Positions 47,477 to 64,000 of a stretch of DNA of 64,000 nucleotides are shown here, piece after piece. The stretch covers positions 2,204,818 through 2,268,817 of the forward strand of contig NZ_HG326652.1 in NCBI RefSeq assembly GCF_000308295.2, written 5' to 3'. Each line of letters starts with the position of its first letter. Within the stretch, counting starts at the first letter, position 1. Under the pieces are notes generated by a model. That model saw only the letters and a list, made by a program, of their open reading frames with translations. It had not been told where the DNA came from and searched no databases. The DNA is from Afipia birgiae 34632 (GTDB lineage: Bacteria > Pseudomonadota > Alphaproteobacteria > Rhizobiales > Xanthobacteraceae). The translations under genes were made by a program, and so were the position numbers.

Positions 47477-49249
47477 CTATGCAACGTCTGTTCTGCGTCT
47501 CGTCGTACCGAGAAGCTTGGGGTACAGGCGGCTTTGCGCGCGTGAAGTTTCGTTGGGATACAGCGCCCTCGCTATTCGTGTTGTTTCCCGCTCAAGCGCA
47601 GCTGTTTCACTTTCAAGCGCCCCTTGCTGGATTTTAGCTGTATCCATCAAGTCGATGAGCGATGGGGCTTGCGATTCAAAAAAGAGGCGTATCTGTTCGA
47701 GAGCCTTGGGCGTGGCCGGTCGCCGCGCGCAATCCCATGCCTGTTCAAGTCCCGGATGCAGCCTGCGATCGGCTTGCTCCACGAGTCTTTGACTGAGGCT
47801 GCGATTATGGCCGGACAGCTTGGCGTAGCTGTCTCCAATAAAGACTGTGGCCCGAATGAATTCGAAGACATACCAGCGGAACGCGCGACGAATGCGCTCA
47901 AAATTCCATCCATCCGTCAGAGCCTGTTCAATCGCCCGGAAATAGCCGGCTTCGGTTGTCGCTACATATCCGAGATCAGCCGGATAAAAGGCCAGTTCCG
48001 GAGCATAGAGAACAACGGGTATCCCCAGCAGCGCCATTTCTTTTCCAACGCTCGACCAGGAGTTCAGAAAGACATCCGTCTGATCAGCCAGATCATACAT
48101 CGAGATGTCGTCATCCGGCCAGTTCACGGCAACATTGGAGGGAACGTCTGCAAAAGCTTCCTTAAGTTGCAAGGCGTGGTGAGACATCACACCTTCACGC
48201 TTATTTGGAAATTCTCTCGGATGAACACGCAGGATTAAAAACAGATCCGGCCGTTTTTTTGCATACGATACCAGCGATTGAACCCACCGAATCTGTGTTG
48301 CAAACAAGGGCGTAGTTGCATGTACACGTGCACCGACAATTTCAGCTGCCCGTTCCTCATCGTAGCTGCTGAGGGTCGCTACGAGTAGCTTTTGCTCAGA
48401 CTTCACGCCGAAATATTTTCGAATATTCTTGTAATCCAACGACTTTGGCTTGGAATAAACGAATGCACTGCGGCCGCGCAAAAGCTCGAAGTAATGCTCG
48501 GTAATCATGGAAATATCTTCGATACGACAAGGTATTCCCGAGAACCGGGGCCATTGTTGAAGCAAATGAGGGAAAAAGGAAAAGGTATCCCCTCGTCCGA
48601 TCCATAGAGTTTGCAGCCTGTTGAACAGATTCCCTCCGGCGTGCAAAAAGTAATGGGGGATTCCGCGACGTTCAGCCAGCTGACAGATAACGCGATTTAT
48701 CGAATACAAGGCGTTGTAAACGACCACACAATCCGGGTTCTCAAGATCAAGCAGCATCTTCCCAGCCTGCCAGGCGTATATCGTGTTTCGCAGCTCCACC
48801 ACGTAATCGGAAAGCTCTTCCGGCGACAGATCCGTTTCGATGCGTTTTCTTCGCAGCATCAACTGGTAAAGCGCGATTTTGCCGATTTGAATCCCTTCGA
48901 TTTCAAGATCAATCAGGGAGCGTTGATCAGGAACGGCGAGAATTGCATCCGCTTCGCGTACCAGATCATCATCGACAAGCCCTGACAAAAGCGGGCCTTC
49001 GAAACCGAATTTTTTCCGAATGAGCGAATCGTGTTCACAGCATCGCTGGCAGACCCTGTGTCGCTCCGAACCCGCAGTTTGGAACGTCATACCATGCGCA
49101 GCCATCGGAACACAGAAGCGATCCAGCTTCTTACCGCAGCCGACGTACACTACCTGATGGCCCGCCTTAACGAGCGCCTCCGCAACTAATGCTTCAGGAA
49201 ATGCATGTTCCCAAAGTGCTGCATGAGGAGAAAAGAACAACGCTTTCAT
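47477..49249 (-). CDS. Large unknown protein of the capsule/surface-glycan type (GT-B-like)
   Basis: I do not recognise the exact family. The 590 residues begin MKALFFSPHAALWEHAFPE, with VVYVGCGKK after it, as in GT-B folds. A Cys cluster follows in RHRVCQRCCEHD (about 64-75). The C-terminal half has RVHPREFPNKREG, DDISMYDLADQTDVFLNSWSSVG and ALLGIPVVLY, which match the pattern of capsule or CDP-glycerol-type transferases. The tail is helical and charged. No membrane helix is seen. The ATG at 49249 is preferred to a TTG 24 nt upstream. It ends 87 nt before the dioxygenase start. Confidence 0.75.
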   Translation of the reverse strand: MKALFFSPHAALWEHAFPEALVAEALVKAGHQVVYVGCGKKLDRFCVPMAAHGMTFQTAGSERHRVCQRCCEHDSLIRKKFGFEGPLLSGLVDDDLVREADAILAVPDQRSLIDLEIEGIQIGKIALYQLMLRRKRIETDLSPEELSDYVVELRNTIYAWQAGKMLLDLENPDCVVVYNALYSINRVICQLAERRGIPHYFLHAGGNLFNRLQTLWIGRGDTFSFFPHLLQQWPRFSGIPCRIEDISMITEHYFELLRGRSAFVYSKPKSLDYKNIRKYFGVKSEQKLLVATLSSYDEERAAEIVGARVHATTPLFATQIRWVQSLVSYAKKRPDLFLILRVHPREFPNKREGVMSHHALQLKEAFADVPSNVAVNWPDDDISMYDLADQTDVFLNSWSSVGKEMALLGIPVVLYAPELAFYPADLGYVATTEAGYFRAIEQALTDGWNFERIRRAFRWYVFEFIRATVFIGDSYAKLSGHNRSLSQRLVEQADRRLHPGLEQAWDCARRPATPKALEQIRLFFESQAPSLIDLMDTAKIQQGALESETAALERETTRIARALYPNETSRAQSRLYPKLLGTTRRRTDVA

Positions 49250-49342
49250 TTTAGTTAGATCAACTGTCCGCAATCGCCGGCGATCCGGATTCCCAGCCGC
49301 CGTGATCAGCTGCTGGCTGGTGCGTATAAGTTCCTTGCATCC

Positions 49343-51199
49343 TCATGCCGCCACCAGTTCCGGCACACGATCGACTACTTCCTGGAACCACAATTCGACA
49401 TTGAGCAGCTGCCACAGGAACATCATGTGATTATCCTGCGCCGCTCCACTTTTCACGATCGAACGATGCTCTTCGATCAGGCGAACAACTTCAGCAACAT
49501 CATAGATGCCGCGCTCCCGGAAGCTTTGCGAATGAACCAGATCGAGCAGTTGTTCGACGGCCGGGCCGTTGAACCAGATATGGGCCGGCGCGTTCCAGCC
49601 GGTCTTCTTGATGCGGGTGCGGGTCTCTTCCGGTAGAATCCCCTTCATCGCTTCACGCAGCAGCCGCTTGGTCACGCCATCGCGGATCTTCATGCTGCCC
49701 GGCACCCGGAACATGAACTCCACCAGCCTGTAGTCGAAGAACGGATCGGCATGACCAAGCCCGGCGGCTTCGCAGTTACGATCCTCTGCACGGAGACAGC
49801 ATGGCGCTGTTTCACGGAAGATGTCCTGATAGGTGCGGTTCTTCAGCCAGCTCGAAAATGGATGATCGAGTACGGGCTGGAAACCGCGCAAATCGTAATA
49901 AGAGGCTTTAACTGCTGGATAGTAACGGCTCAGACGTTCGCAATCGACGAGAACCTCTCCCGTCGTGTTACCGGCCAGTCGCGCCAGATGTCCCATCGCA
50001 GCGTCGCGGTGCTTGCGATAAATCGGATGGTCATGATGCTTCGCCCATGTTGAAATTTCATGGTCGAGATCGGCGTGCAGCCCGCGATGCCGGAGATCTG
50101 CAAAGTTAAAAACGAAGTACTCATATTCGCCAGCATTCAGCTCATCGCCACCAAGACCGCCGAAAACAACGTCGTAGCCCTGCTCCGCGACAGATTTCGT
50201 CAATAGAAAATGTGACAGCCATGTTGCCGTGGCAACCGGTTCATCATGGGCACGCACCATTTGGCGCACGACGTCGAACAAATCGAAATCCTCGATCGGT
50301 ATCGGCTGCCATCGCCGAACTTTCTCGGTGACGAAACCGCGGATATCGTCGCTCTCGTCATACGTCTTGTCCGCGTAAACTGACGAAACAGCTTCCTGTC
50401 GTGCGCCTGTCAGTTGAACGGCGCTTGCCAGTACTGACGAACTGTCCATCCCCCCCGAGAGAGTGAAGACGGGTTTGTGTGATGCTTTCAGGCGGTCTCC
50501 GACCGCATTGAGTAGAAGTTCACGATAGCGTTCCGCCAATACGGCTTCGCTATCGGTCCACTCCGGTTGCTCGTCCAAAGACCAGTAACGGCTTACCAGA
50601 ACGGTCTCACCTTTCCACTGCAGGAAGCTGGCGGCAGGAAGCTGGCGAATATCCGCGAATGGCGATTCATCCGGTGCATTATCGATATAGCGATAGTGAC
50701 TCCCGGCAAACACCGCGACATGACGCCGGTTAACGTCATGCGATACGCCTGGCAGCGACCGGAGGGCTCGAGGCCGGGATGCGAACGCAAAGACACCGGA
50801 CCGAGTGTAATAATAAAGTGGGCGCACGCCGATCCGATCGCGCCCGAGCCATAAGGTTCCGCTCTGCTCGTCGAACAGAGCAACCGAGAAATCGCCATTG
50901 ATGCACTTCAAGGCATCGGCAAAGCCTCTCTGGCGATAAGTTGCGATCAGCTGGTGGGCCGGCCCGCGTCCTGCATCACCTGCGAGTTCAGTGGGATTGT
51001 AGAAAACGCCGTCGACGACCGCGACACATCCGCTTTCCTGGGCAATTTCGAGATTCCCGGCACCGGCAGTCGCAAGCGCCCCGCTCGGGAAGCCGAACGA
51101 TCTGGCTTTGCCAGCCGCCATCAGCCGCGCCATTCCTGCAGCGAACAGTTCTGACTGGGACTTTGACCGCCCGCCGAAGAAACCTGAAATTCGTGACAT
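49343..51199 (-). CDS. Asparagine synthetase homologue lacking Cys2
   Basis: AsnB-like protein of 618 residues. It starts MSRISGFFGG: residue 2 is Ser, so the glutaminase nucleophile is absent. The glutamine-binding FNGEIYN motif is altered to VDGVFYN (62-68). The synthetase half looks intact: PP-loop SGGMDSS (248-254), GGLGGDELNAGEYEY and a C-terminal basic KKTGWNAP block. It may use free ammonia or another amine, or form another acyl-adenylate product, as in beta-lactam synthetase. It starts one base after the stop of the methyltransferase gene. Confidence 0.87.
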   Translation of the reverse strand: MSRISGFFGGRSKSQSELFAAGMARLMAAGKARSFGFPSGALATAGAGNLEIAQESGCVAVVDGVFYNPTELAGDAGRGPAHQLIATYRQRGFADALKCINGDFSVALFDEQSGTLWLGRDRIGVRPLYYYTRSGVFAFASRPRALRSLPGVSHDVNRRHVAVFAGSHYRYIDNAPDESPFADIRQLPAASFLQWKGETVLVSRYWSLDEQPEWTDSEAVLAERYRELLLNAVGDRLKASHKPVFTLSGGMDSSSVLASAVQLTGARQEAVSSVYADKTYDESDDIRGFVTEKVRRWQPIPIEDFDLFDVVRQMVRAHDEPVATATWLSHFLLTKSVAEQGYDVVFGGLGGDELNAGEYEYFVFNFADLRHRGLHADLDHEISTWAKHHDHPIYRKHRDAAMGHLARLAGNTTGEVLVDCERLSRYYPAVKASYYDLRGFQPVLDHPFSSWLKNRTYQDIFRETAPCCLRAEDRNCEAAGLGHADPFFDYRLVEFMFRVPGSMKIRDGVTKRLLREAMKGILPEETRTRIKKTGWNAPAHIWFNGPAVEQLLDLVHSQSFRERGIYDVAEVVRLIEEHRSIVKSGAAQDNHMMFLWQLLNVELWFQEVVDRVPELVAA

Positions 51200-52843: not shown

Positions 52844-53674
52844 TCATGTCATCGCCGCCAGAAACGCGCGCAGCGTGAATTTAGTACTCGGCTCCTGCAG
52901 CCGTTCGACAAGCATCGGCCGGAAGCCGGCCCGGTCCGCCAGCATCGCGATCGACACAAAGCTGAAGACATGCAGGTGCTCGACGAAGAACTCCTCGCGC
53001 CCTGCTCCCGACTGCGCCGCGATCTCGCCGTCCGGCAGTTCGAGATAGACGAAGCCGCCCGGCGCCAGAAACTGCCGCGCCCGGCGCAGCATGGCGACGG
53101 GATCGTCCACGTGCTCAAGCACCTTGTTTAAGGTGACAATATCGAACCGACCGAGACCTTCGACCGCCATGAAGTCACCGCTAACTGCATCGACGCCGAC
53201 ATGGTCCTGCATGTGAGACACCGCGCGCTGGTCAGGATCGATGGCCGTGCAATGCCAGCCGGCTTGCTTCACGACATGCGGGAAAACGCCGAGGCCCGCG
53301 CCGACATCGAGCAACCGGATGTTTTTCTTGTTGCCGAAGCAGGCCTCTGCGTAGGCGTGGACTCGGGCCATCCGTCCTGCATTGTCCGACCGCTCCGGGG
53401 GCAACGCTATTACTCGCTCAAACGCAGCGCGCAGGCCCGCATCGTCTCCGTAGGTGGCGTTGACGTAGTCACCGCTGTAATCCGTCGCGACCGTCATAGC
53501 GTGACGCGACACAAAATGCTTCGACTGCGCGAACTGCCAGACCTCGCGGCGATACGGTTCGCCATCGGGGCGGCGAAACCCGATCTCACCGTTGGGCGGG
53601 GCATCGTAGGCGAACACAAGCGCGGCCTGCGTATCGCCGGAAATCGGACAAGCCGTGGGGCGCAGATCGCTCAC
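52844..53674 (-). CDS. Class I SAM methyltransferase
   Basis: A 276-residue methyltransferase. Motif I is LLDVGAGLGVFPHV (about 119-132), then TAIDPDQRAVSHM, FDIVTLNKVLEHVDDP and LAPGGFVYLELPDG; the order is typical of the UbiG-like fold. The N-terminal 90 residues (CPISGDTQAALVFAYD, PPNGEIGFRR) resemble the leader of sugar C-methyltransferases but lack a full zinc-binding Cys set. The GTG start overlaps the stop of the upstream small gene as GTGA. Longer frames run through that gene and are rejected. Confidence 0.84.
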   Translation of the reverse strand: MSDLRPTACPISGDTQAALVFAYDAPPNGEIGFRRPDGEPYRREVWQFAQSKHFVSRHAMTVATDYSGDYVNATYGDDAGLRAAFERVIALPPERSDNAGRMARVHAYAEACFGNKKNIRLLDVGAGLGVFPHVVKQAGWHCTAIDPDQRAVSHMQDHVGVDAVSGDFMAVEGLGRFDIVTLNKVLEHVDDPVAMLRRARQFLAPGGFVYLELPDGEIAAQSGAGREEFFVEHLHVFSFVSIAMLADRAGFRPMLVERLQEPSTKFTLRAFLAAMT

Positions 53675-54054
53675 GGCCGGCGCTCCAGCGCGCTTTCCAG
53701 CGCCTGCAGGGATTCGAGCGTGTCGAGCCAGGCAATAATTTTCAGTGGCTCCGCGCGGACGTAACGGTTGAACGCCTCTTCCATGCCGCGTTCGACGAGG
53801 AGGACGAAAAAGCGGTCGATGCGATTCTTGACCAGCACTGCGCGAAGATTGAAGCCCGCCAGCCGTCCGTTCAACGACGGGGTTGCGTAAAAGCCCCATT
53901 CCTTACGGGTGAGATCGTATTCGCCGCCGTCGTCGGTGACGAATGTGATCTGCTCGTCCGGCGCCAGCCGCATCGTGCCGCAATCGCGGATGACGCCCTT
54001 GACGTCGTAACCGACTTCAAATTCCCGCGGCGGGCTCTTCGGCTCGAACTTCAT
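53671..54054 (-). CDS. Small conserved hypothetical protein paired with the WbpG homologue
   Basis: I do not recognise this 127-residue protein. It has a beta-rich first half with a VIRDCGTMRLAPDEQITFV strand set and a helical second half (RYVRAEPLKIIAWLDTLESL, listed in part). No signal peptide or membrane helix. Its ATG overlaps the WbpG-type stop as ATGA, and its stop overlaps the next start as GTGA, so it is made together with both. A role as a partner or chaperone of the amidotransferase is a guess from position. Confidence 0.78.
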   Translation of the reverse strand: MKFEPKSPPREFEVGYDVKGVIRDCGTMRLAPDEQITFVTDDGGEYDLTRKEWGFYATPSLNGRLAGFNLRAVLVKNRIDRFFVLLVERGMEEAFNRYVRAEPLKIIAWLDTLESLQALESALERRP

Positions 54055-55193
54055 GCGCTCAGCCTTTGCCCGGCATCGCGCCATGTCCAATCCGGGACAA
54101 CGAAGTCCTGGATTTTCCAAGTCGAACCGTCGCGCACCCAGACATCGCGGTTCCGGAATGTCTCCGCGATGTCAAAAAACTCCCGCACCGAGATGCCGAG
54201 AAACTCACACAGCTTCTCTATGTCCTTGTGAGGCGTCTCATCGCCACGCGCGCGGACAACAGCGACGGCCTGCTCGCGTGTCACGCGGCCGTTACGGATT
54301 TCCAGCGAAAGATTGTCGAACAGCCGGGTGAATCCGAACTTGTACCATTTCAGCCAGTGGTGAATGGAAATGAAGTCGTCGTCGATGTCGGCATAATCGT
54401 AGAGACCTGTTCGCGGCCCCTGCCGGTCCGCCACGAAGCCGTGCTCGGCCGCAACCCGCCGCGTAACTTCAGGATCCCATTCGAGATAGTAGCCCAGGAA
54501 AACCGCGAGAACGTCGGCGGCCTTCAGTTCAGCATCGTTCGGCCCGAAATACGGCGTCAATTCCCGTTCGGTCAGACGCTCGGAAATCCAGTCCTTCGCC
54601 GTGGTGCCGTGAGTCACCCCGTGACGCTGCAACCATGCACTGTCGAGCTGGAAGCCGGTTCTCTCTTCTTCCCGCCCGCCGTATTCGAAAGCCGAGTTCT
54701 CGCCCCAGACCACCAGCGGGATTCCCAATTTCACAGCGAGCTTCGCGGGGATTGCGAAAATGGCCATGTGCATCGGTACGGCCGTCGAGCCGAAGCGTAC
54801 AAGCGCGTCGTACATGAACTTCCGCTCGACCTTCGGATTGATCTGATAGTCAATATGATCGACACCGAGCGCCACGAGATTGTCCAGATTGCGCTGGCCG
54901 ATAGATGTGCGGCCCGGCGTCTTCCACGTCGCAGCAAGCGGATTGAGACCGGCTTCAAGGCATTTCACGACCTGCCATGTGCTGTCCTTGCCGCCGCTGA
55001 CCGGAATGAGACAGTCGTAACCCGTGCTGCGAGATTTGGCATGCGCAACGACAGCCTGGAATGCGCGTTGCCGGGCATCCCAATCAATTTCTTTCTTGGT
55101 GCCGTGAGACTGGCAGGCGTTGCATACGCCGTCCGGCCCGATGACGAGATTGGGGCGCGTATCCGGCAGGATGCAGTTGCTGCAATAACGCAT
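54051..55193 (-). CDS. N-acetyl sugar amidotransferase, WbpG/PseA family
   Basis: PP-loop enzyme of 380 residues that converts an acetamido group of an activated sugar into an acetamidino group. The N-terminal zinc ribbon has C4, C7, C24 and C27; the ATP motif is SGGKDST (66-72). GENSAFEYGGREEER and the C-terminal DIEKLCEFLGIS are family blocks. In Pseudomonas the ammonia for WbpG comes from HisH2/HisF2; no hisH or hisF homologue is in this window. The start codon forms TGATG with the AsnB stop. Confidence 0.92.
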   Translation of the reverse strand: MRYCSNCILPDTRPNLVIGPDGVCNACQSHGTKKEIDWDARQRAFQAVVAHAKSRSTGYDCLIPVSGGKDSTWQVVKCLEAGLNPLAATWKTPGRTSIGQRNLDNLVALGVDHIDYQINPKVERKFMYDALVRFGSTAVPMHMAIFAIPAKLAVKLGIPLVVWGENSAFEYGGREEERTGFQLDSAWLQRHGVTHGTTAKDWISERLTERELTPYFGPNDAELKAADVLAVFLGYYLEWDPEVTRRVAAEHGFVADRQGPRTGLYDYADIDDDFISIHHWLKWYKFGFTRLFDNLSLEIRNGRVTREQAVAVVRARGDETPHKDIEKLCEFLGISVREFFDIAETFRNRDVWVRDGSTWKIQDFVVPDWTWRDAGQRLSA

Positions 55194-57025
55194 CAGGTAG
55201 CGAACTCTTCGAGGAACATTTTGCAGTTCAGGAAATAGAACAGAAACTTGCTCTGGCTGTTCGGCAGATCGCGCTGGCCGATCAACTGCTCGATGCGATC
55301 CTTGCGGACATATTCATAGACCGGGCCTTCATCCAGCAGATAGCTGCGGACGTCCGGATCCTTGACGTCGAGATAATCCATAATCGGGGCGTTGAAGCCG
55401 ACCTTGCGGCGGTTGTCGATAATGCTGTCGGGTGCGATCCCGCGCACCGCCTCGCGAAGGATAGCCTTCGCCTTTCCGTCATCGATCAGATGCCGAGTCG
55501 GAATGCTGTTGCAGAACTCGAATAGATCTCGATCGAGAAACGGCGAGCGGTTCTCCACCGAGAAATACATCGCGTTGAGATCGTCCTCGTGCAGGATCAC
55601 CGGCACCGACTCGTGAAACAATTCGTTGAGCATCCGGTTACGGAGCAGATTGCCGCTGTAGGCCGACTCCGCGAACGACTCGCTCCAGTCCGATGTCATG
55701 AACGTGCTGAATTCGTCGGCATCGAGATAAATGTGATCGCGGAAAGTCGGGTCTTTCACGAACAGATCGGGATTGCTCAAGTGCGGATTGCGAACCACGG
55801 GTTTGATATGTGACTGCCACGCGGCCAGTGACCGTGCATGGTGGTCCTTGTCGCCCTTCACCTCCTGCAGGTAGGCAAGGTGATGATCGTAATATCCGCT
55901 GAACAATTCGTCGGCGGCCGTTCCGCTGATGGAGATGCGATACCCGGCATCAGCAATCGCCTTCTGCAGCATCCACTGAGCGTAATACGTAATCGTATAG
56001 ACCGGCGCATCGTGCTGCTTCACCAGCGCACGCAGGCCCGGCAAAAAACCGTCCGTGGACACGGGGATCGACGTATGGCGCACGCCAAGCTCGCGCACCG
56101 CGAGATCGACCATGTCGGATTCTTGGTAACGCGAGTCCGTATTGACGATCGTGAAACCGTGAACGTCGTGGCCGAAGACCCGCTTGGCGATGCTGATCAG
56201 CGCATTGGAATCGACACCGCCGCTCATGCAGAATGCCAACGGCACATCGGCCCGCAATCGCAATTCTACTGAGCGGATCAGCCGCTCCCTCGCGCCGGCG
56301 ACGGCGTCCTGAAAACTCATGTCGTCGTTCACTGCGATGCGCGGCGACCAGTAAGGCTTGTGACCAACAATCTCGCCGTCACGGCATTCCAGGTTATGGC
56401 CGGATGCAACTTCGCGGATGCCGTGAAAAAAGCCGTGCGGCTTCTTGTACAGCGCCTTGTAACCGTTGATGAGGTAGCGCCACAGATGATCGTGGTTGAT
56501 CGCGATCTTCTCGCCGATCAGCGCCGCGATGAACTTGATTTCCGAGCCGAAATAGATGCCGTCCTCGGTCTGATAATAGTACAGCGGCTTTTCGCCGAAC
56601 CTATCGCGCGACAGCGTCAGCTGCCCGCTTTGCTCATCGTAAAGCCCGAAAGCCCACATGCCCTCGCATTTGTCGAGCACGTCCCATCCGAAACGGCGCA
56701 GCGACGCGAGCAGCACCTCCGTATCCGACCGCGTCTTGAGCGCGACACCGGCGGCTTCAAGCTCCTTACGCCGTTCGACAAAGTTGTAGATCTCGCCGTT
56801 CAGCGAAATCCACGCTTTCTCGAAGCCCATCGGCTGATTGGCGCGCGGATCGAGGTCGATGATCGACAACCGACTATGCAGCAGCGTTGTGTGTGTCCCG
56901 GAAGGCGTCTGCCAGCTTCGCGCCTCACGATAATCAGGACCACGGCGATTCATCAACGCAAGACAAGCGTCGATCCGCGCCTGCGCGAGCGGCTTCCGAC
57001 CCTGATATCCTGCGATTCCGCACAT
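55193..57025 (-). CDS. asnB: Asparagine synthase (glutamine-hydrolysing), AsnB family
   Basis: Complete class II amidotransferase of 610 residues: Cys2 (MCGIAGYQG), SRLSIIDL, LNGEIYN (75-81), the PP-loop SGGVDSN (268-274) and SGTAADELFSGYYDHH. The last Ser of the usual PP-loop SGGVDSS is Asn here. The start is fixed by Cys2. It touches the upstream deacetylase gene (TAATG) and the downstream WbpG gene (TGATG), a position that suggests an ammonia or amide-supplying role in the same pathway. Confidence 0.91.
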   Translation of the reverse strand: MCGIAGYQGRKPLAQARIDACLALMNRRGPDYREARSWQTPSGTHTTLLHSRLSIIDLDPRANQPMGFEKAWISLNGEIYNFVERRKELEAAGVALKTRSDTEVLLASLRRFGWDVLDKCEGMWAFGLYDEQSGQLTLSRDRFGEKPLYYYQTEDGIYFGSEIKFIAALIGEKIAINHDHLWRYLINGYKALYKKPHGFFHGIREVASGHNLECRDGEIVGHKPYWSPRIAVNDDMSFQDAVAGARERLIRSVELRLRADVPLAFCMSGGVDSNALISIAKRVFGHDVHGFTIVNTDSRYQESDMVDLAVRELGVRHTSIPVSTDGFLPGLRALVKQHDAPVYTITYYAQWMLQKAIADAGYRISISGTAADELFSGYYDHHLAYLQEVKGDKDHHARSLAAWQSHIKPVVRNPHLSNPDLFVKDPTFRDHIYLDADEFSTFMTSDWSESFAESAYSGNLLRNRMLNELFHESVPVILHEDDLNAMYFSVENRSPFLDRDLFEFCNSIPTRHLIDDGKAKAILREAVRGIAPDSIIDNRRKVGFNAPIMDYLDVKDPDVRSYLLDEGPVYEYVRKDRIEQLIGQRDLPNSQSKFLFYFLNCKMFLEEFAT

Positions 57026-57933
57026 TAGCTCACCATCACCCGATGAAGGTGAAATGGGTCCGCGCCTGGCCGGTTGGTGCCGTCAATGGCCGTCGGGCAG
57101 CAAGCGATCCCCCTCGCCTTGAGCGCCCGGATAACTTCCTCGGAATAACAGTGTGCGAGGCCTTCGGGATAGGAATAGTGGGAAGCGACGATACCTGTTC
57201 TCTCCTTCAACATCCGGAGACTGATATCAATCTCTTGCTCCAGTCGCGGCCCTGAGAGGAAGCTCAAGATCGCGTGCGTATGACTGTGGCCGCCCACTAA
57301 GCAACCGCCCGTGCGCCAGCTCCGCACTTGATCCCATGTCATCTTTCGATCAAGCTGATCATCACTCGACCGCACCTCCTCCAAGTCCAATTGCCGAAAG
57401 ACATCGCTGACAAATCCATCAACGTCGAGACCAGGCGTCGATTTGACGTTCCTGCGAATGTCGTTGAGGATCGCTATCTTTTCTGCAGGGTTCGCGAAGT
57501 GGGATGCCCGTTGCGACCAGGGTAATCTCAAAACGCCGTGCCGAGTCTTTTCTATCGCATACTCGATCCGGTCTACCCACGACATGCCGTTTTCGTCGAC
57601 AAAGCCCGACGTCACATAAACGGTGGCCGGAATGCCAAGCCGATCGAGAACCGGGCGGGCAACAGTCAAGTTGTTCTCAAAGCCATCGTCAAACGTAACC
57701 GCAAAGGCCCCCCTCGGAAACTGTTCTCCACTCAGACAAGTCCCGAGCACGTCATCCATCGACATAGCTTTGCCGACTCGACCAACGCCTGCAAGGATCG
57801 CCTCAAACTCAACCACGGGGAGATGCTTGCGCGTATAATTGCGAACCTGATGCTCTTGGCGTTCAATCACACCGTGAAAAAGGAAGATCGTCAGGCCACC
57901 ATCATTGGTCAGACGGTCGGTCAAACTACTCAT
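57025..57933 (-). CDS. NodB-type polysaccharide deacetylase
   Basis: Carbohydrate esterase family 4-like protein of 302 residues. The catalytic Asp and first metal ligand lie in TFDDGFENN (80-88), and the metal HxxxH is in GGHSHTH (H216 and H220). LFHGVIE at the start and YPEG later are further family blocks. No signal peptide is seen, so it may act in the cytoplasm on a precursor. GGAG stands 9 nt before the ATG at 57933, which overlaps the formyltransferase stop by 8 nt. Confidence 0.87.
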   Translation of the reverse strand: MSSLTDRLTNDGGLTIFLFHGVIERQEHQVRNYTRKHLPVVEFEAILAGVGRVGKAMSMDDVLGTCLSGEQFPRGAFAVTFDDGFENNLTVARPVLDRLGIPATVYVTSGFVDENGMSWVDRIEYAIEKTRHGVLRLPWSQRASHFANPAEKIAILNDIRRNVKSTPGLDVDGFVSDVFRQLDLEEVRSSDDQLDRKMTWDQVRSWRTGGCLVGGHSHTHAILSFLSGPRLEQEIDISLRMLKERTGIVASHYSYPEGLAHCYSEEVIRALKARGIACCPTAIDGTNRPGADPFHLHRVMVS

Positions 57934-58669
57934 CGGGATGCTCTCCTTCGGCATCGTTGACCAACGCTTTCGTGTAGTTGTCGAATTTCCTTCGGCAGAT
58001 ATCCTTGAGCGGGCTCGGCATGAATGAATAATATCTCCCCTTACGCCGCTGCTTGCGGCTCGGTACCGCCCCTTGATCGCGAAAAGCCGCCAGCGCGGCA
58101 AGTGTCAGTCGAATACACGTTTCGGTATTTGCCCGCCGCAAGGCATAAAGGGGCATGCCTGCCGAGAGGTGGACATCTTCTTGCAAACAGATGTCACCGT
58201 CGTCGATCATCGGGTTGAGAGTGTGCAGCGTCGTGACGAGCCCATCAAAGTCACCATGGTAGATGGCCCAGAGATGCGTATCCAACCCCCGATAGTCCTC
58301 TGGATCCCCGCCGTGCAGGTTGAGGAAGCATTGAGGACCGTTTTTGAGCACAGCCTCCGACAGCCGGCCCGTACCAAAGACGATTGCGATATCCGCGCGC
58401 CAATCCGCAAGAGCTCTTATCGCGTCAATGCCATTCATCGTGTCAAAGGCTGTCACTGGCGCGAACACATCAAGTTGGGGATTGGCTCCCTTAAACCAGA
58501 ACTCTCGCTCGAAAGAATCGCGCTCTGTCTCATAGTGGTGAAACGTCTCGAACGGAGCTTTTAGACTACTATTTTCGGCAAAAACATGCACGTCTTCAAA
58601 TCTAGCTACAATCTCCCGAACGAAGAACGCATGATGTGGGGTTTGCGTTGTCAACAGAGCTATCTTCAT
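57926..58669 (-). CDS. Formyltransferase-family protein
   Basis: A 247-residue enzyme with the fold of methionyl-tRNA formyltransferase and sugar N-formyltransferases. The catalytic set N117-x-H119 is in LNLHGGDPEDYRG, and D157 is in DDGDI. It is expected to move a formyl group from N10-formyltetrahydrofolate to an amino sugar. It starts 5 nt after the NeuB-type stop and overlaps the deacetylase start, so the three are produced together. The C-terminal region is basic. Confidence 0.85.
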   Translation of the reverse strand: MKIALLTTQTPHHAFFVREIVARFEDVHVFAENSSLKAPFETFHHYETERDSFEREFWFKGANPQLDVFAPVTAFDTMNGIDAIRALADWRADIAIVFGTGRLSEAVLKNGPQCFLNLHGGDPEDYRGLDTHLWAIYHGDFDGLVTTLHTLNPMIDDGDICLQEDVHLSAGMPLYALRRANTETCIRLTLAALAAFRDQGAVPSRKQRRKGRYYSFMPSPLKDICRRKFDNYTKALVNDAEGEHPDE

Positions 58670-58674
58670 GACGC

Positions 58675-59688
58675 TCAGCGAAAGTCGTCGTCGTTCAATA
58701 TCTGTCCGAGCAACACGTCGCGACTGAGGGCCCGACCGACAACGAGTGCCTCATCACCGGGCGCGAACCCGCCCCCGGGCCGAACCCAAGTCAAATCATT
58801 GTCGGACAGAACATGACCAGCCCTCATCGCCCTACCGGCCGCGATAGAACGGCGCATCGCCAATCGATTTGGCTCCTCGACCTCTGTCGTCTCCCCAGCC
58901 TCATCGCCAATAAGTTCCTCGGCCAAACGCACACCACGCACAAGACTGGCCATTTCCATCGGATCAGCAGAGAGTTGATGATCGCGAAAATCGGAAAAAT
59001 CCTTTCTCAGCGTAAAGTGCTTCTCGATGATTCTAGCGCCAAGACCGACGCTGAGGATCGCAGCGTCATTGCCGAGTGTGTGATCCGAATAACCAATCAC
59101 GTGTTCGCGGAAGCGGATCGACAAAGCACGAATCGCGGCGAGATTCGCAAATGCGGAAGGGGTGGGATAACTGGACACGCAATGCAGCAAAGCAAGCTCC
59201 CCCGTATGATCGAGATCAGACCAGACTTTCATCAGGCGATCGATCGCCTTCTCAACATCCGCAAAGCTGGCTAGTCCGGTCGAGAAAATTACAGGTTTAC
59301 GAAAGGACGCCACGCGCTCTATAAGAGGGAAAAAGCTGTTATCACCCGATGATATCTTGATTGCAGGGCAGAATGATGCAAGCGCATCAGCACTCGTAAG
59401 ATCGAACGGTGTCGAGAAAAACTGAAGGCCCTGCTGGTTTGCGAGTCGTGCCAAACTGCAAAACTGCTCGAAGCTTAAGGCGAATTTTCTTAGCCGCTCC
59501 AACCGCTCGTTCTGATCCCGTGACACATAATTTTCCGGTACGAACGTCTGAAACTTGACCGCATCAACACCCGCAGCGGCGGCCTGGCCGATGAGTTCCT
59601 CTGCTAGCGAAAAACTTCCCTCGTGATTGTTCCCAATTTCGGCAACAACGAAGACGCGTTTAAGCAAATCGAAGTTCCCGATCTTCAT
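58675..59688 (-). CDS. NeuB-family nonulosonic acid synthase
   Basis: Condenses phosphoenolpyruvate with a hexosamine-type sugar to give a nine-carbon 2-keto acid. The 337 residues show AEIGNNHEGS (16-25), AVKFQTF (43-49), the FSTPFD and GYSDHTLGN blocks and the metal-binding EKHFTL. The C-terminal SAF (antifreeze-like) domain spans about 280-335, ending in GRALSRDVLLGQIL. The subgroup (sialic, legionaminic, pseudaminic) cannot be told from motifs alone. The gene overlaps the GNAT stop by 4 nt (ATGA). Confidence 0.92.
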   Translation of the reverse strand: MKIGNFDLLKRVFVVAEIGNNHEGSFSLAEELIGQAAAAGVDAVKFQTFVPENYVSRDQNERLERLRKFALSFEQFCSLARLANQQGLQFFSTPFDLTSADALASFCPAIKISSGDNSFFPLIERVASFRKPVIFSTGLASFADVEKAIDRLMKVWSDLDHTGELALLHCVSSYPTPSAFANLAAIRALSIRFREHVIGYSDHTLGNDAAILSVGLGARIIEKHFTLRKDFSDFRDHQLSADPMEMASLVRGVRLAEELIGDEAGETTEVEEPNRLAMRRSIAAGRAMRAGHVLSDNDLTWVRPGGGFAPGDEALVVGRALSRDVLLGQILNDDDFR

Positions 59689-60437
59689 GCCGCAAGCGCT
59701 CCGTTGTTGACGTGGGCGTGCAGGACGTACGACGTTTCAGTCACCCGGAAACCAATCGATTCATAAAGCCGGATCGCCGGAATGTTGGAAATCTGCGTGC
59801 CGACGCGAAGTCGGTCCGAGCGGGTCCGCCATTGCTCTATGAACATCTTGCACAGCGCTTGGCCAGTGCCCTGTCCTTGACACCCTGCCCCCACTCCAAC
59901 CAGATCAATGATCGCGTCCGTTTCCTTGATTGATTTGCTTTCGAGCACGGCCAAGAAGCCTCTCACGGTATTTTTCTGCCGTGCAACGTAAATGGCGCTG
60001 GCGCGTCCCTGGCAGGCGTCACGAGCCCACTGCCGCTTGACTTCGTTCGCTCGGTCCAGACCGATGGCTGGATCGAGATGAAACCGCGAAAATACAAAGC
60101 AGTGTCCAGCAATTGCCTCCACGGCCAAGGTGTCACCCGCAGTCGCAGACTCGATGTTCGAGGTGCTGTAGTCACTTCGGAAATTGCTGGCTGCGCCATC
60201 CTCCCAATCGAACGTTACATTGACATCGATCACGGAAAATCCCGCCCGCGTTGCATTCGTCACGGCAGCCACGTCCCGAGTCGGGATTTTTGCAGAGAAG
60301 AAGGCTGCGCCGTGCCCGGCACGATCCAGCATTGTCGCCAGGATTTCCGCGGGCGGCACAGCTGCCCCCATACCAAACACTTTCCAGCTTGAGACGCCGA
60401 GAACATCAGACAACCAGTCGTCTCTTTCAGCGCGCAA
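59685..60437 (-). CDS. GNAT acetyltransferase, WecD-like
   Basis: N-acetyltransferase of 250 residues. The acetyl-CoA loop is GVGAGCQGQGTGQAL (181-195), followed by NIPAIRLYESIGFR. The N-terminal half has the DWLSDVLGVSSWKV block seen in dTDP-Fuc4N acetyltransferases. It probably acetylates the amino group that the DegT aminotransferase adds. The start appears to be TTG: the only codon upstream in the same frame is GCC-GTC-GTT and then the TGA of the epimerase gene. It overlaps NeuB by 4 nt. Confidence 0.85.
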   Translation of the reverse strand: MRAERDDWLSDVLGVSSWKVFGMGAAVPPAEILATMLDRAGHGAAFFSAKIPTRDVAAVTNATRAGFSVIDVNVTFDWEDGAASNFRSDYSTSNIESATAGDTLAVEAIAGHCFVFSRFHLDPAIGLDRANEVKRQWARDACQGRASAIYVARQKNTVRGFLAVLESKSIKETDAIIDLVGVGAGCQGQGTGQALCKMFIEQWRTRSDRLRVGTQISNIPAIRLYESIGFRVTETSYVLHAHVNNGALAA

Positions 60438-60446
60438 GGCGACAAC

Positions 60447-61478
60447 TCAAGCAAAATAGCCTGGGTGTTCAGCCGCCATTTGCTTGTACCACTCGATATA
60501 GCGGGGGAAGCCCTTCTCGAGCGGATACTGCGGCTCATAACCAATCAGGCGCTTTGCCTTATCGACCGACAACGTGCCTCGCTCCGGCATCAGGCCATCT
60601 CTCGGATTGTGCACCACCTCGATGTTAGGGAATGCCTGCCTCATCAGATCGATCATTTGATTGAGTGTCCGGGCGCTGCCGTAAGTCAGATTGAACGTCT
60701 GATTTCTTGCCTCTGGCAACGCGATGGATCGCAGCAAACCCTGCACAAGATCTTCAATATAGGTGAAGTCGAGCGCATCATTGCCATCGCCGTTCACAGT
60801 GAGACGCATACCCCGCAGCGCGTTCTCGATAAACGCCTGCCCGACGCGTCGGCTAACGCACCGCTCGCCATAGAGCGCCGAAGGCCGGACGATTGTGTAA
60901 GGCGTATTGAACACCTGATTGTGTGCAATCACTAGCTTTTCGCCGCCATACTTCAGAGCACCGTAGATACCCATTGGTTCGCAGTGGCGTTCTTCGACGG
61001 CAGCCTCACCTTCGAAATTTCCGTACACCATCGATGATGAGAAATAGACGAAGTGAACGTTCTGATCGCGCGCGGTATCCAGCGCATTCTCCAAGGTACG
61101 GAACGAATGGTCGAACGTGCTGTACGGATCCTTGTTGGAACGATTGGCGTGAGCAATCGCCGCGAGTTGGACAAAGCAGTCCGCTTTGATGTCGGACAGG
61201 CACCGCGACAGCGCGTGATAATCGCGCGCGTCCAGAACGTGCATTGGAATTCCGACCTCGCGCAACAGCCTCATGCGTTCGAAAATGAAATTGACGTAGA
61301 GAGTCTTGTTCGGATCTTCACCGGAGTTGGTAAACGCACCCAGGTTGTTCACCTGAAGCCCGTCAATGACGTGCGGATCAGCGCCATGCCGTTTCAGCGC
61401 TAGCGCAAGATTATGACCAATGAAACCCGCGCCGCCGATCAGCGCAATAGTACGGCCCTTCAGCTTTTCTTCGAACAC
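60447..61478 (-). CDS. NAD-dependent epimerase/dehydratase
   Basis: Extended SDR of 343 residues. The NAD motif is GGAGFIGHNLA (15-25), the catalytic Ser is in SSSMVYG, and the YxxxK motif is YGALK in YGALKYGGE. The block GDGNDALDFTYIEDL and LTYGSARTLNQMIDL are typical of nucleotide-sugar 4-epimerases or 4,6-dehydratases. The GTG start has GAGGGA upstream and overlaps the aminotransferase gene by 19 nt. No LegB/PseB-type motif beyond this can be claimed. Confidence 0.87.
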   Translation of the reverse strand: MFEEKLKGRTIALIGGAGFIGHNLALALKRHGADPHVIDGLQVNNLGAFTNSGEDPNKTLYVNFIFERMRLLREVGIPMHVLDARDYHALSRCLSDIKADCFVQLAAIAHANRSNKDPYSTFDHSFRTLENALDTARDQNVHFVYFSSSMVYGNFEGEAAVEERHCEPMGIYGALKYGGEKLVIAHNQVFNTPYTIVRPSALYGERCVSRRVGQAFIENALRGMRLTVNGDGNDALDFTYIEDLVQGLLRSIALPEARNQTFNLTYGSARTLNQMIDLMRQAFPNIEVVHNPRDGLMPERGTLSVDKAKRLIGYEPQYPLEKGFPRYIEWYKQMAAEHPGYFA

Positions 61479-62629
61479 ATCAAATCCCTCACGATCGTGG
61501 TCAATACTTGTGCGATGTGATTCATGTCATCGATTTCCAAATGCGGCCCTACTGGGAGCGCAATCGACTGATCGCTGATGCGGGCAGCATTCGGAAAACG
61601 TGAAAGGTCTTCATCATACTTTTCGCGATAGTAGGCAAGCCGTGGAATCGGGTGTGGGTAATAGACGCTGGTCCCGACGCCCGCAGCATTAAGCCGTCGA
61701 ATGACTTCCGTGCGCTGGCTGGCCAAGGCACCGTCCAGTACTGCAGTCAGGCAGTAATGGCTATTGATCTGGTTGGCGGCCGTGGCATCGAGGATCGCAA
61801 CATGTTCGAGATCGGCCAGCCCGCTCTTGAGGGCGGCGAAGTTCCGAGCACGTCGCTCCAGGATAATTCCAAGGCGCTTTAATTGCTCGCGCCCGATCGC
61901 AGAATTGATGTCGCTCAAGCGATAATTGATGCCCAACGAAAGCACGTCATAAACGCCGGGAACGGTGCGCTCGGCGAAGGTTCGATCCACACCAAAGGCC
62001 CTCGCCTTCGATATCTTTTGTGCGAGATCCCCATGCCGGGTGATCAGCATTCCGCCGTCGCCCGTCGTAATATGTTTGACGGGATAGAACGAAAATGTTC
62101 CCGCATCACCGAACAGCCCGGCGTGGATTCCGTCCCACCGCGTCCCAAGCGCTAACGCACAGTCCTCGACAACCTTCAGGCCGTGCTTCGCCGCAATCTT
62201 CATAATCGCTGGCATGTCGCATGGCATGCCCACAAAGTGCACCAACCCGATTGCACGTGTCCGGGGAGTTATCGCCGCCTCGATTGCCTCAGGCGTCATA
62301 TTGCCAGTGGCTCGGTCGCAATCCACGAACACCGGCCGCGCCCCGACAACTTCGACGGCATGGACAGTCGCCACATGAGTCTGGGCTGGAACGATCACCT
62401 CGTCGCCCACCCCGATACCAAGTTGCCAATAGGCGAGATGCAGCGCTGCAGTGCCGTTACTTAGGGTGAGCGCATGCCCTCCTCCGACGGCAGCGGCGAA
62501 TTCCTTCTCGAATTCGTGAGCCTGAGGGCCATGCGTGAGAACGTCGCCTGCCAGAACGCCGAGGACGGCATTGCGTTCCGCATCCGTGATCCAGGGTTTT
62601 CCGAATGCGATTTTACGTTGCTGGGTCAT
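61460..62629 (-). CDS. DegT/DnrJ/EryC1-family sugar aminotransferase
   Basis: PLP aminotransferase of 389 residues. The PLP lysine is K185 in FYPVKHITTGDGG; SNGTAALHL and EDCALALG complete the site. The N-terminal FGKPWIT and the LTHGPQAHEFEKEF block match the PseC/LegC/ArnB-like group that aminates C4 of a keto sugar. It likely works with the epimerase/dehydratase and GNAT downstream. The ATG overlaps the Gfo/Idh stop (ATGA). Confidence 0.9.
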   Translation of the reverse strand: MTQQRKIAFGKPWITDAERNAVLGVLAGDVLTHGPQAHEFEKEFAAAVGGGHALTLSNGTAALHLAYWQLGIGVGDEVIVPAQTHVATVHAVEVVGARPVFVDCDRATGNMTPEAIEAAITPRTRAIGLVHFVGMPCDMPAIMKIAAKHGLKVVEDCALALGTRWDGIHAGLFGDAGTFSFYPVKHITTGDGGMLITRHGDLAQKISKARAFGVDRTFAERTVPGVYDVLSLGINYRLSDINSAIGREQLKRLGIILERRARNFAALKSGLADLEHVAILDATAANQINSHYCLTAVLDGALASQRTEVIRRLNAAGVGTSVYYPHPIPRLAYYREKYDEDLSRFPNAARISDQSIALPVGPHLEIDDMNHIAQVLTTIVRDLMCSKKS

Positions 62630-63654
62630 TGATAACTGATCTGCACTGATGAAGAGATGGAAACCGACTCGTCACAAGCGACCGCAATCGCAATCGAGTC
62701 GAGCGTAGCGTCGAGATTCCGCGTCTGCCGTTTTGCGTTCGACACGATCCCTTCCACGAAAGACGGGATCAGCACGCCCTTATGAGACGGCCTTGCCGCA
62801 AGATCGACCGGCGACGGCAGAGACACAGATTCACCCGGACGAATGGGATCGCGGGATGTCATGATGCGCGCGCCGGCATCGTCCAGAATGAACGTCTTGC
62901 GGGTGCCGAAAATCCGCACCACGTGCTGATGCCGATGGACGCAGCCAAAATTGGCCGTGATCCTCGCCGCCAGCCCTGAAGCGAATGTCATCGTCGCGGC
63001 GGTGAAGTCATTGTATTGGAACGCCGTACCTCGGGCACAAATCCCGTTGCCGACGGCATGAACCGAAACCGGGCGCTGGCCCGTCAGCCAGAGCATCAAA
63101 TCGATCATGTGGATGCCGCCGCCGAGCATGACCGAATACTGCTCCGTCTCGCCGCGCCATCCATCGGTGATCTTGTGCAGGCGGCCATAGAGATAGTCGC
63201 CATCGAACGCGTATATTTCGCCGAACGAGCCGGACTCGATTTCCGCCTTGAGCCAGCGATAGAGGTCCGCGCCGCGAAGCAACAGATTGCTGGCAAGATG
63301 CAGATCGTCATGTGCGGCAAGGGTCTTTCGAATATCGGCCAGTTCCGACGCATTACGGCACAGCGGCTTCTCGACAAAAACGTGCTTTTTCGCCAGAAGC
63401 GCACTCTTGACCTGGGTGAAATGCATATCGTCGAACGAGGCAATCGATACGACATCGATGTCGTTACGTTCCAGCACATCCTCGTAGCGATCGAGCGCAT
63501 CACAATCGGAAAACTCCGACGCCAGAGCCTCTGCGCGATGGCGGTCAAGATCGACAAGCGCGCGAACCCGGCATGAAGGAAGCGTGGCATACATCCGGGC
63601 ATGCTGCTCGCCGATCCCGAGCCCAATCACCGCAACGCCGAGTTCTCCCTGCAT
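62626..63654 (-). CDS. Gfo/Idh/MocA-family oxidoreductase
   Basis: NAD(P)-dependent dehydrogenase of 342 residues with AVIGLGIGEQHA near the N-terminus and the catalytic motif VEKPLCRNASEL (about 93-104). The GGGIHMIDLMLWL block holds the second active-site His/Asp pair. The GTGATG start region offers two codons; ATG at 63654 overlaps the upstream stop by one base. Members oxidise or reduce sugars in nucleotide form; in this cluster it may adjust a keto position before condensation. Confidence 0.87.
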   Translation of the reverse strand: MQGELGVAVIGLGIGEQHARMYATLPSCRVRALVDLDRHRAEALASEFSDCDALDRYEDVLERNDIDVVSIASFDDMHFTQVKSALLAKKHVFVEKPLCRNASELADIRKTLAAHDDLHLASNLLLRGADLYRWLKAEIESGSFGEIYAFDGDYLYGRLHKITDGWRGETEQYSVMLGGGIHMIDLMLWLTGQRPVSVHAVGNGICARGTAFQYNDFTAATMTFASGLAARITANFGCVHRHQHVVRIFGTRKTFILDDAGARIMTSRDPIRPGESVSLPSPVDLAARPSHKGVLIPSFVEGIVSNAKRQTRNLDATLDSIAIAVACDESVSISSSVQISYQ

Positions 63655-64000
63655 CACGCTTCGATGTCCGCCAGCGCGGCCAGCGATGCCGACGGGTCCG
63701 TGGCAAGGGTCTCCAGCGCTCTGAGATCATCGAGACTATCGACAACCATCCGGGTGCTGGCCAGATGCGGCTCGCGGCAGACGATGCTGCGCAGCCGCCA
63801 GTTTCCCTGTCCGTCGTAGAAAACTTTTGTCACGTGCTCCTGCTGCGCCGCCGTCAGCGCATCGGCCTGCAAGGCGGCGAACACGTCGCTCCGTATGCAC
63901 TCAACGCTTTGGCCGGGCGGAAAAGTCCGCTTCGCGACGTTGGAAACAACATCGTGTCCGGGGCCCCTGAAGCCGAGCATAGTCTTCACCAAAGCACCGC
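63654..64000 (-). CDS. Sugar cytidylyltransferase (NeuA/SpsF-like), C-terminal part
   Basis: Only the last ~115 codons are in the window; the gene begins beyond 64000. The segment QQEHVTKVFYDGQGNWRL (in part) and MVVDSLDDLRAL near the end match the C-terminus of CMP-sugar synthetases of the SpsF/LegF/NeuA type, where EHVT...FY and VDT-x-EDL are conserved. It would activate the NeuB product as a CMP-sugar. The stop overlaps the Gfo/Idh start. Confidence 0.75.
   Translation of the reverse strand, partial: GALVKTMLGFRGPGHDVVSNVAKRTFPPGQSVECIRSDVFAALQADALTAAQQEHVTKVFYDGQGNWRLRSIVCREPHLASTRMVVDSLDDLRALETLATDPSASLAALADIEA

Follow-up and report, generated by a model that had tools for sequence, protein, structure and literature searches.

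The right-hand end of the window, by which we mean the whole 64,000-nucleotide stretch of Afipia birgiae 34632 analyzed here (contig NZ_HG326652.1, positions 2,204,818 to 2,268,817), carries an operon that we read as one copy of a widespread cassette, predicted to make a sialic-acid-like (ulosonic) sugar and to activate it with cytidine monophosphate (CMP) without a nucleotide-sugar hydrolase. We put the probability of this reading at roughly 45%. It builds on the observed gene content, the conservation of the gene set, the missing known hydrolases and 2-epimerases, a separate clade of NeuB synthases, and altered sites in NeuB and in a short-chain dehydrogenase/reductase (SDR), from which we infer the substrates, the order of the steps, and the product. 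An earlier note on the window had proposed a variant route to a CMP-activated C9-type sugar for positions 57025 to 64000. A variant route is well supported by our results, in which no canonical gene set appeared past the window edge and NeuB did not group with plain sialic acid synthases.

All genes named in that note are present in the open reading frame (ORF) list and the profile searches, tightly packed on the minus strand, and the proposed combination of NeuB, a cytidylyltransferase, Gfo/Idh, DegT, epimerase, GNAT, formyltransferase, and deacetylase was matched family by family. The unit is larger than proposed, since it takes in asnB, wbuX, a 127-amino-acid ORF, and a methyltransferase gene (52844-57025), and the supposed cytidylyltransferase end does belong to that family and is the 3' part of a complete, SpsF-type gene. 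From its start, the operon reads as follows; L002 coordinates refer to the sequence spanning the right edge of the window, in which spsF (L002:7471-8130) ends at window position 64313.

L002:8834-9475, operon head, beyond the window edge: winged-helix gene
L002:8322-8837, operon head, beyond the window edge: NusG/RfaH-like antiterminator gene
63654..64000, on to 64313 past the edge, minus strand: spsF, SpsF-type cytidylyltransferase, 219 amino acids (CTP_transf_3, 4e-16)
62626..63657, minus strand: gfo, Gfo/Idh/MocA oxidoreductase, core cassette gene (PF01408, 9e-19; PF22725, 2e-20)
61460..62629, minus strand: degT, pyridoxal phosphate (PLP) aminotransferase, PseC/ArnB-like, C4-aminotransferase type (PF01041, 5e-112)
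60447..61478, minus strand: sdr, extended SDR with a 4-epimerase fold, of the subfamily with L236 and S-S-S-M150
59685..60437, minus strand: gnat, WecD-like N-acetyltransferase (PF00583)
58675..59688, minus strand: neuB, nonulosonic-acid-type synthase of the cassette clade (PF03102, 1.5e-65; SAF domain PF08666)
57926..58669, minus strand: fmt, formyltransferase, ArnA relative, with the N-x-H and D residues in its sequence (PF00551, 5e-8)
57025..57951, start uncertain, minus strand: deac, NodB-type polysaccharide/sugar deacetylase with TFDD and HSHTH motifs (PF01522, 1e-16)
55193..57025, minus strand: asnB, glutamine-hydrolyzing AsnB-type amidotransferase, core cassette gene (PF00733, PF13522, PF13537)
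54051..55193, minus strand: wbuX, N-acetyl sugar amidotransferase (TIGR03573, 321 bits versus a cut-off of 203.2)
53671..54054, minus strand: orf9, 127-amino-acid protein between wbuX and mt, without a Pfam or NCBIfam match
52844..53899, start uncertain, minus strand: mt, class I methyltransferase, conserved downstream cassette gene (PF13489, 6e-24)

Further methyltransferase genes follow. The genome (5.33 Mb in 5 contigs, reported completeness 99.97%) contains a single NeuB.

To describe the distribution of the cassette, named genomes were scanned with an SDR alignment, and the best 80 loci of 391 relatives, chosen by SDR similarity, were kept. Several of them are short contigs, so absences there are to be read as lower bounds, and two pairs are apparently the same contig (L048 and L040, both 9142 bases; L072 and L038, both 215813 bases). 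By tblastn, relatives of degT were found in 75 loci, gfo and neuB in 71 each, asnB in 66, gnat and spsF in 65 each, wbuX in 56, mt in 38, fmt in 15, and deac in 11. Within 9 kb of the SDR gene, spsF, gfo, degT, sdr, and neuB occur together in 60 of the 80 loci, and gnat, asnB, and wbuX join them in 44; when only the 53 loci with enough sequence on either side are counted, the five core genes are found in 47 and all eight in 40. Since most loci repeat these genes beside the SDR, 22 of them in the exact order spsF-gfo-degT-sdr-gnat-neuB-asnB-wbuX, the grouping exceeds chance. Gfo/Idh, which the earlier note had regarded as an addition, is a core gene (71/80). All-against-all clustering also placed orf9 relatives in 42 of the 80 loci, adjoining wbuX in many cassettes; its predicted model is confident (predicted local distance difference test, pLDDT, 94.7), and structure comparison gave no clear fold match.

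The 60 core-gene loci span 14 named phyla, one of them archaeal via a single metagenome-assembled genome (MAG), while two loci lack a named phylum. Carriers include Nitrospira, Rhodocyclaceae, SAR116, Pelagibacter-type, cyanobacterial, and archaeal records, as well as an Azospirillum brasilense plasmid, whose copy bears generic gene names only, with gfo as two overlapping pieces and with degT and spsF absent from an incomplete gene table. Within the family of the window, by comparison, the cassette SDR was detected in 6 of 296 genomes (E up to 1e-60; window genome included; one at only 40% identity). Presence in many phyla combined with rarity in its own family suggests that the cassette has been transferred horizontally. 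Three contigs of a viral collection hold cassette-like sets at 27-46% identity (L149:1457-9937; L150 and L151:1185-6963), all with spsF, degT, sdr, neuB, and wbuX and the first also with gfo and gnat, so phages may encode a form of the pathway. In the literature, no title or abstract opening among the matches listed describes the gene set (subscription papers being mostly outside this scope), and the passages on related clusters in PMC7371886, PMC8053191, PMC3438082, and PMC11337218 describe no such cassette. The widespread cassette is apparently an uncharacterized form of a known operon type, the ulosonic-acid operon.

The absence of NeuC/LegG and PseG extends beyond the window. As the earlier note had advised, the sequence right of position 64000 was read for NeuC, PseG, and LegB genes: in 26 kb, the NeuC and PseG models gave no match, and no LegB-LegG or PseB-PseG set was found. 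Both models recovered their reference loci, and the PseG model also recovered the PseG of a family relative (G030) outside its training set, whose pseudaminic acid (Pse) cluster scores over the NCBIfam cut-offs (PseB 518, PseC 473, PseI 491 bits). In the whole Afipia genome, we detected no PseG even at E 0.1, and neither a GlcNAc 2-epimerase (AGE) nor NanE. The sole Epimerase_2 protein is WecB (481 bits versus a cut-off of 210; NeuC model 76 versus 236), which adjoins a UDP-ManNAc dehydrogenase as a WecB-WecC pair on a contig other than that of the operon. Since AGE and NanE are lacking and the only Epimerase_2 protein is WecB, we know of no enzyme in this genome that supplies free N-acetylmannosamine (ManNAc).

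The other carriers give a similar picture. The PseG model matched in none of the 80 loci, and the NeuC model matched in four, weakly (56-72 bits versus 517-581 for its reference proteins) and always outside the cassette. Whole-genome searches for Epimerase_2 and PseG covered 34 of the 80 loci: 26 of these carrier genomes hold an Epimerase_2 protein over the cut-off and 8 do not, the latter including Methylocystis sp. B8, whose record is not a MAG and contains the full cassette; PseG exceeded its cut-off in one of the 34. Nor is the cassette SDR a LegB or PseB, because it scores far below both cut-offs (LegB 72.7 versus 475, PseB 18.9 versus 408) and carries S-S-S-M, with M150 in 80/80 rows, in place of the TDE dehydratase motif.

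Two of the cassette enzymes differ from their relatives at sites that bear on the substrate. The window NeuB stays below the cut-offs of the N-acetylneuraminate synthase equivalog (TIGR03569; 284 versus 399.65 bits) and of PseI (TIGR03586; 219 versus 340.25, the G030 control PseI reaching 491). A tree of 91 rows separates, by a branch of SH-aLRT 99, 69 cassette NeuBs from 21 references comprising PseI, LegI, NeuC-linked, phosphatase-linked, sialyltransferase-linked, and other synthases. The trees are quick LG+G4 trees with SH-aLRT support only; for this one the program warned of long branches meeting among the references, and the PseI outgroup is not one side of a branch. L072_19598 was dropped because it duplicates a reference row, and L114_4076, an additional NeuB at a distance from the cassette, falls outside the clade. 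The cassette NeuBs are not seen to group with the phosphatase-linked synthases in this tree, where both E. coli reference rows sit on long branches and animal sequences are not included. The comparison with characterized types suggested in the earlier note thus yields a separate clade of cassette NeuBs only, which does not group with sialic, legionaminic, or pseudaminic references.

Residues E17, K45, K111, H203, and H224, whose metal and phosphoenolpyruvate (PEP) roles and numbering we take from N. meningitidis NeuB, are kept in 69/69 cassette rows, as is the SAF-domain Arg. The loop before the substrate-binding Asp, by contrast, mostly reads F-R-D-H with one residue inserted, and R235 is present in 65/69 cassette rows versus 0/13 references. 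This altered loop points to a changed, possibly anionic, substrate. In the SDR, position 236 is L or I in 80/80 rows (79 loci plus the window) versus Arg in 37/39 other extended SDRs, an Arg that we take to bind the nucleoside diphosphate (NDP) phosphate at the equivalent site of GalE; R210, R211, and R300 are invariant (80/80). Of the other cassette enzymes, Gfo keeps the EKP Lys and the downstream His in all 67 aligned cassette copies; DegT scores 294 bits with the PseC model (cut-off 423.5) and has the ArnB-type 8sng as its best PDB match, with NtdA and the transaminase of 8-amino-3-deoxy-D-manno-octulosonic acid (8-amino-Kdo; 5k8b) among its structural matches; and GNAT matches WecD models under their cut-offs (NF008212, 82 bits; TIGR02382, 58 bits). 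A further NeuB-like gene was seen on a Roseovarius pelagicus plasmid (L132:1784-7005), beside an aldolase/citrate-lyase family gene, asnB, and DegT.

In the proposed pathway, Gfo/Idh would oxidize a hexose or hexose phosphate, DegT would transaminate the ketone, GNAT would acylate the amine, and the SDR would set a configuration. NeuB would join PEP to the amino sugar, in free or phosphorylated form, and SpsF would add CMP; AsnB and WbuX might then add nitrogen as an amide and/or an acetamidino group. In this strain, the deacetylase and formyltransferase would swap one N-acetyl for N-formyl. With no nucleotide sugar among the proposed intermediates, the pathway would not require NeuC, LegG, or PseG.

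The activation step depends on SpsF, which matches CTP_transf_3 over half the profile only. Its best solved relative is 6oew ('Cytidylyltransferase'; 7e-17), and its nearest hidden Markov models (HMMs) are Kdo cytidylyltransferases (KdsB models), far below cut-off. Since the other two of the three CTP_transf_3 proteins in the genome are KdsB (413 bits versus 281) and a MocA-like protein, SpsF is the natural, and only remaining, candidate CMP activator of its family. In the passage on a Vibrio Pse cluster in PMC7371886, an SpsF-like domain may likewise replace NeuA.

Several observations weigh against a pathway free of nucleotide sugars. The nearest structural relatives of the SDR act on nucleotide sugars, and the loss of one Arg does not prove a different substrate. 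The known members of the PseC/ArnB-like and WecD-like families, to which DegT and GNAT belong, use NDP-sugars. NeuB D116 is not specific to the clade (4/13 references have it). Some Epimerase_2 protein occurs in 26 of the 34 carrier genomes, its type having been assigned in the window genome only, and all but one of the eight carriers that lack it are MAGs, perhaps incomplete. About 14 kb right of spsF lies a 671-amino-acid Polysacc_synt_2 protein of WbpM/CapD type (L003:1945-3960; PseB model 148 versus a cut-off of 408), a family that we take to be UDP-GlcNAc 4,6-dehydratases making UDP-4-keto-6-deoxy sugars; it could feed a UDP-4-keto sugar to DegT, as in the first step of legionaminic acid (Leg) or Pse synthesis, and this possibility reduced our estimate for the preferred reading. 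Finally, a hydrolase of an unfamiliar family may exist inside or outside the cassette, with orf9 and unlinked genes as candidates.

One alternative, which we consider rather unlikely, places the modifications late: NeuB would make an ordinary ulosonic acid out of a common sugar, which Gfo/Idh, DegT, SDR, and GNAT would then oxidize, aminate, epimerize, and acylate before or after CMP transfer, as in 8-amino-Kdo. It would account equally well for the missing hydrolase, and both the 8-amino-Kdo transaminase among the DegT matches and an SDR that lacks the usual NDP-phosphate Arg, with invariant Args as possible binding partners for a carboxylate or a monophosphate, agree with it. Yet the loop is changed in nearly the whole NeuB clade, suggesting an unusual substrate already at condensation, and the genome has no NeuC, AGE, or NanE to supply ManNAc, although mannose or another free sugar would do.

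Also unlikely is a classical route over a UDP-, GDP-, or dTDP-sugar, as for Leg and Pse, perhaps begun by the unlinked WbpM-type dehydratase, in which a non-homologous enzyme frees the sugar. The kinship of DegT with PseC/ArnB and of GNAT with WecD, the nucleotide-sugar 4-epimerase fold of the SDR, the 671-amino-acid protein 14 kb from spsF, and the recurrence of orf9 without an assigned family all favor such a route. However, the SDR has neither the 4,6-dehydratase motif nor the Arg kept by 37 of 39 other extended SDRs, orf9 relatives occur in only 42 of 80 loci, and among these loci PseG is absent and the four weak NeuC-model matches lie outside the cassette. Much less probable is a product other than a C9 acid (C7 or C8, for example), with NeuB taking a shorter aldose and the remaining steps as preferred above: nothing in the sequence fixes the carbon number, the NeuB substrate loop is unlike the references, and the HMMs nearest to SpsF are those of Kdo enzymes, but the SAF-domain Arg is kept in 69/69 rows and the NeuB family members known to us make C9 acids. 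A decayed or split canonical Leg, Pse, or sialic acid pathway with its missing steps elsewhere in the genome, for which the WecB-WecC pair on another contig and the WbpM-type dehydratase 14 kb away might speak, is very improbable and largely contradicted by the genome searches, since WecB is of the non-hydrolyzing type, PseG, AGE, and NanE are lacking, and the conserved gene set spans 14 named phyla with no PseG-model match in 80 loci and NeuC-model matches only outside the cassette.

Our preferred reading, a cassette pathway that dispenses with the nucleotide-sugar hydrolase, may be taken further. In its fullest form, which we propose tentatively and regard as possible rather than probable, the operon would encode a route, independent of nucleotide sugars, to a CMP-ulosonic acid of a new class: Gfo/Idh, DegT, a dedicated SDR, and GNAT would build the amino sugar as a free sugar, phosphate, or acid, a new NeuB clade would condense it, AsnB and WbuX would amidate it, and the cassette would have moved between bacteria of distant lineages and reached at least one archaeal assembly, perhaps phages too.

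The decorating genes vary more than the core. WbuX scores well over its curated cut-off and can be placed firmly among the N-acetyl sugar amidotransferases. A HisH/HisF-like gene accompanies only 1 of 44 loci with a window-like wbuX (at least 48% identity) versus 5 of 9 with a distant wbuX, a split chosen after the values were known and with the HisH/HisF families confirmed for two representatives; the near-absence of this gene beside window-like wbuX fits AsnB as the ammonia source there. The N-formyl branch, which the earlier note had also called additional, is indeed an optional module, found in a minority of cassettes (deac in 11/80, fmt in 15/80), and appears as a strain-level insertion. 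Deac is always accompanied by fmt (11/11), as expected if an N-acetyl group is removed and then replaced by N-formyl.

Comparison with Methylocystis sp. B8 (L047), whose cassette shares 62-92% identity in spsF, gfo, degT, sdr, gnat, asnB, and wbuX, delimits this insertion. DNA similarity to L047 and L048 reaches approximately position 59617, some 70 bases inside neuB, and that to L039 ends at 60481 in the SDR gene. Across neuB-fmt-deac, similarity to all three is nearly lost (one 123-base L047 match lies inside neuB) and resumes at 57025, the asnB start. Protein identity to L047 follows the same pattern, with 72% for gnat, 84% for asnB, and 41% for neuB, while fmt and deac have no match there. 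Given this break, the synthase was probably exchanged and the formyl module gained in this strain. The order neuB-fmt-deac-asnB recurs in Desulfobacterales, Fibrobacteres, Methanomicrobiaceae, and Spirulina records (L081, L088, L092, and L106), and a Synechococcus plasmid shows the same deacetylation/formylation logic, its LmbE-like gene lying next to a synthase that the tree places with PseI references.

Around the operon, the 26 kb to the right continue, after the NusG/RfaH-like and winged-helix genes, with the following features and then with lipopolysaccharide (LPS)-type genes (Glycos_transf_4, the 671-amino-acid Polysacc_synt_2 protein, O-antigen ligase, PfkB/CTP_transf_like, heptose epimerase, heptosyltransferase, and GalE).

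L002:10086-14459, just upstream of the operon header: Mutator-family transposase, then YqaJ- and ERF-type recombinase genes
L002:18282-19421, right of the operon: group-1 glycosyltransferase

The transposase and recombinase genes by the operon header are in line with horizontal arrival. The winged-helix and NusG/RfaH-like pair (L002:8322-9475; L046:1677-2836; L038:2030-3189) also heads the canonical Pse cluster of G030 (62% and 59% identity) and resembles a portable header shared by operons for different sugars. The WbpM/CapD-type protein at L003:1945-3960 might share an intermediate with the cassette. On the other side of the operon, a second AsnB-like gene (49343-51199) begins with M-S-R rather than M-C-G and so lacks the usual glutaminase catalytic Cys; judged by this, it may encode an AsnB-like ligase that uses another nitrogen source. 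The polysaccharide region adjoining the operon also encodes a 598-amino-acid protein without a Pfam match (47477-49273).

Genome-based prediction of bacterial sialic-acid-like sugars relies on NeuB phylogeny together with NeuC, LegG, and PseG, and a cassette with NeuB but without those steps would be missed or misassigned. A passage of the 'Candidatus Accumulibacter' paper (PMC8053191) describes four NeuB classes and leaves less conserved NeuBs, which might represent unknown specificities, out of its tree. Given the carrier records, the cassette sugar could occur commonly in water and in sludge. In an environmental enrichment, (Pse/Leg)AcAm sugars were measured, according to the passage in PMC11337218; the cassette is a conceivable source of these amidino-type signals. 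The cassette is compact enough to be expressed and assayed whole.

Of the known systems, the Leg and Pse pathways (LegB/C/H/G/I/F; PseB/C/H/G/I/F) share with the cassette a PLP-dependent C4-type aminotransferase, an N-acetyltransferase, PEP condensation by a NeuB-family enzyme, CMP activation, and the setting of a polysaccharide or glycan operon. The cassette differs in having no 4,6-dehydratase (the WbpM-type protein being 14 kb off, and other unlinked ones not having been searched for), NeuC/LegG, or PseG, in its core Gfo/Idh, AsnB, and WbuX and its own SDR subfamily, and in a NeuB outside the PseI and LegI clades; a Gfo/Idh-like protein, PtmF, does occur in Campylobacter legionaminic loci. 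The kanosamine route (NtdABC) converts glucose-6-phosphate with a Gfo/Idh and a DegT enzyme into a free amino sugar without a nucleotide sugar. It matches the cassette in this enzyme pair, and in NtdA among the DegT structure matches, whereas no NtdB-type phosphatase was seen in the cassette and the NtdABC product is a C6 sugar made without NeuB. In 8-amino-Kdo synthesis (KdnA/KdnB), a DegT aminotransferase likewise acts within an ulosonic acid pathway, followed by a KdsB-type cytidylyltransferase, but KdnB is an alcohol dehydrogenase rather than a Gfo/Idh, and NeuB, SDR, and GNAT have no part in it. The animal-like 9-phosphate sialic acid route (NeuB plus phosphatase), known from E. coli loci and, in a passage of PMC3438082, from Leptospira with a phosphatase fusion, also needs no NeuC-type hydrolase at condensation; the cassette NeuBs stand apart from phosphatase-linked synthases, and the recurrent cassette families identified include no phosphatase (an unlinked one was not searched for). 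Pse clusters can also contain SpsF, as on a Priestia megaterium plasmid, where an SpsF-type 'spore coat protein' gene lies beside a PseI-type synthase with no annotated pseF. That cluster keeps PseC, PseH, and PseG, whereas the Afipia operon lacks PseG and pairs SpsF with a synthase of another clade.

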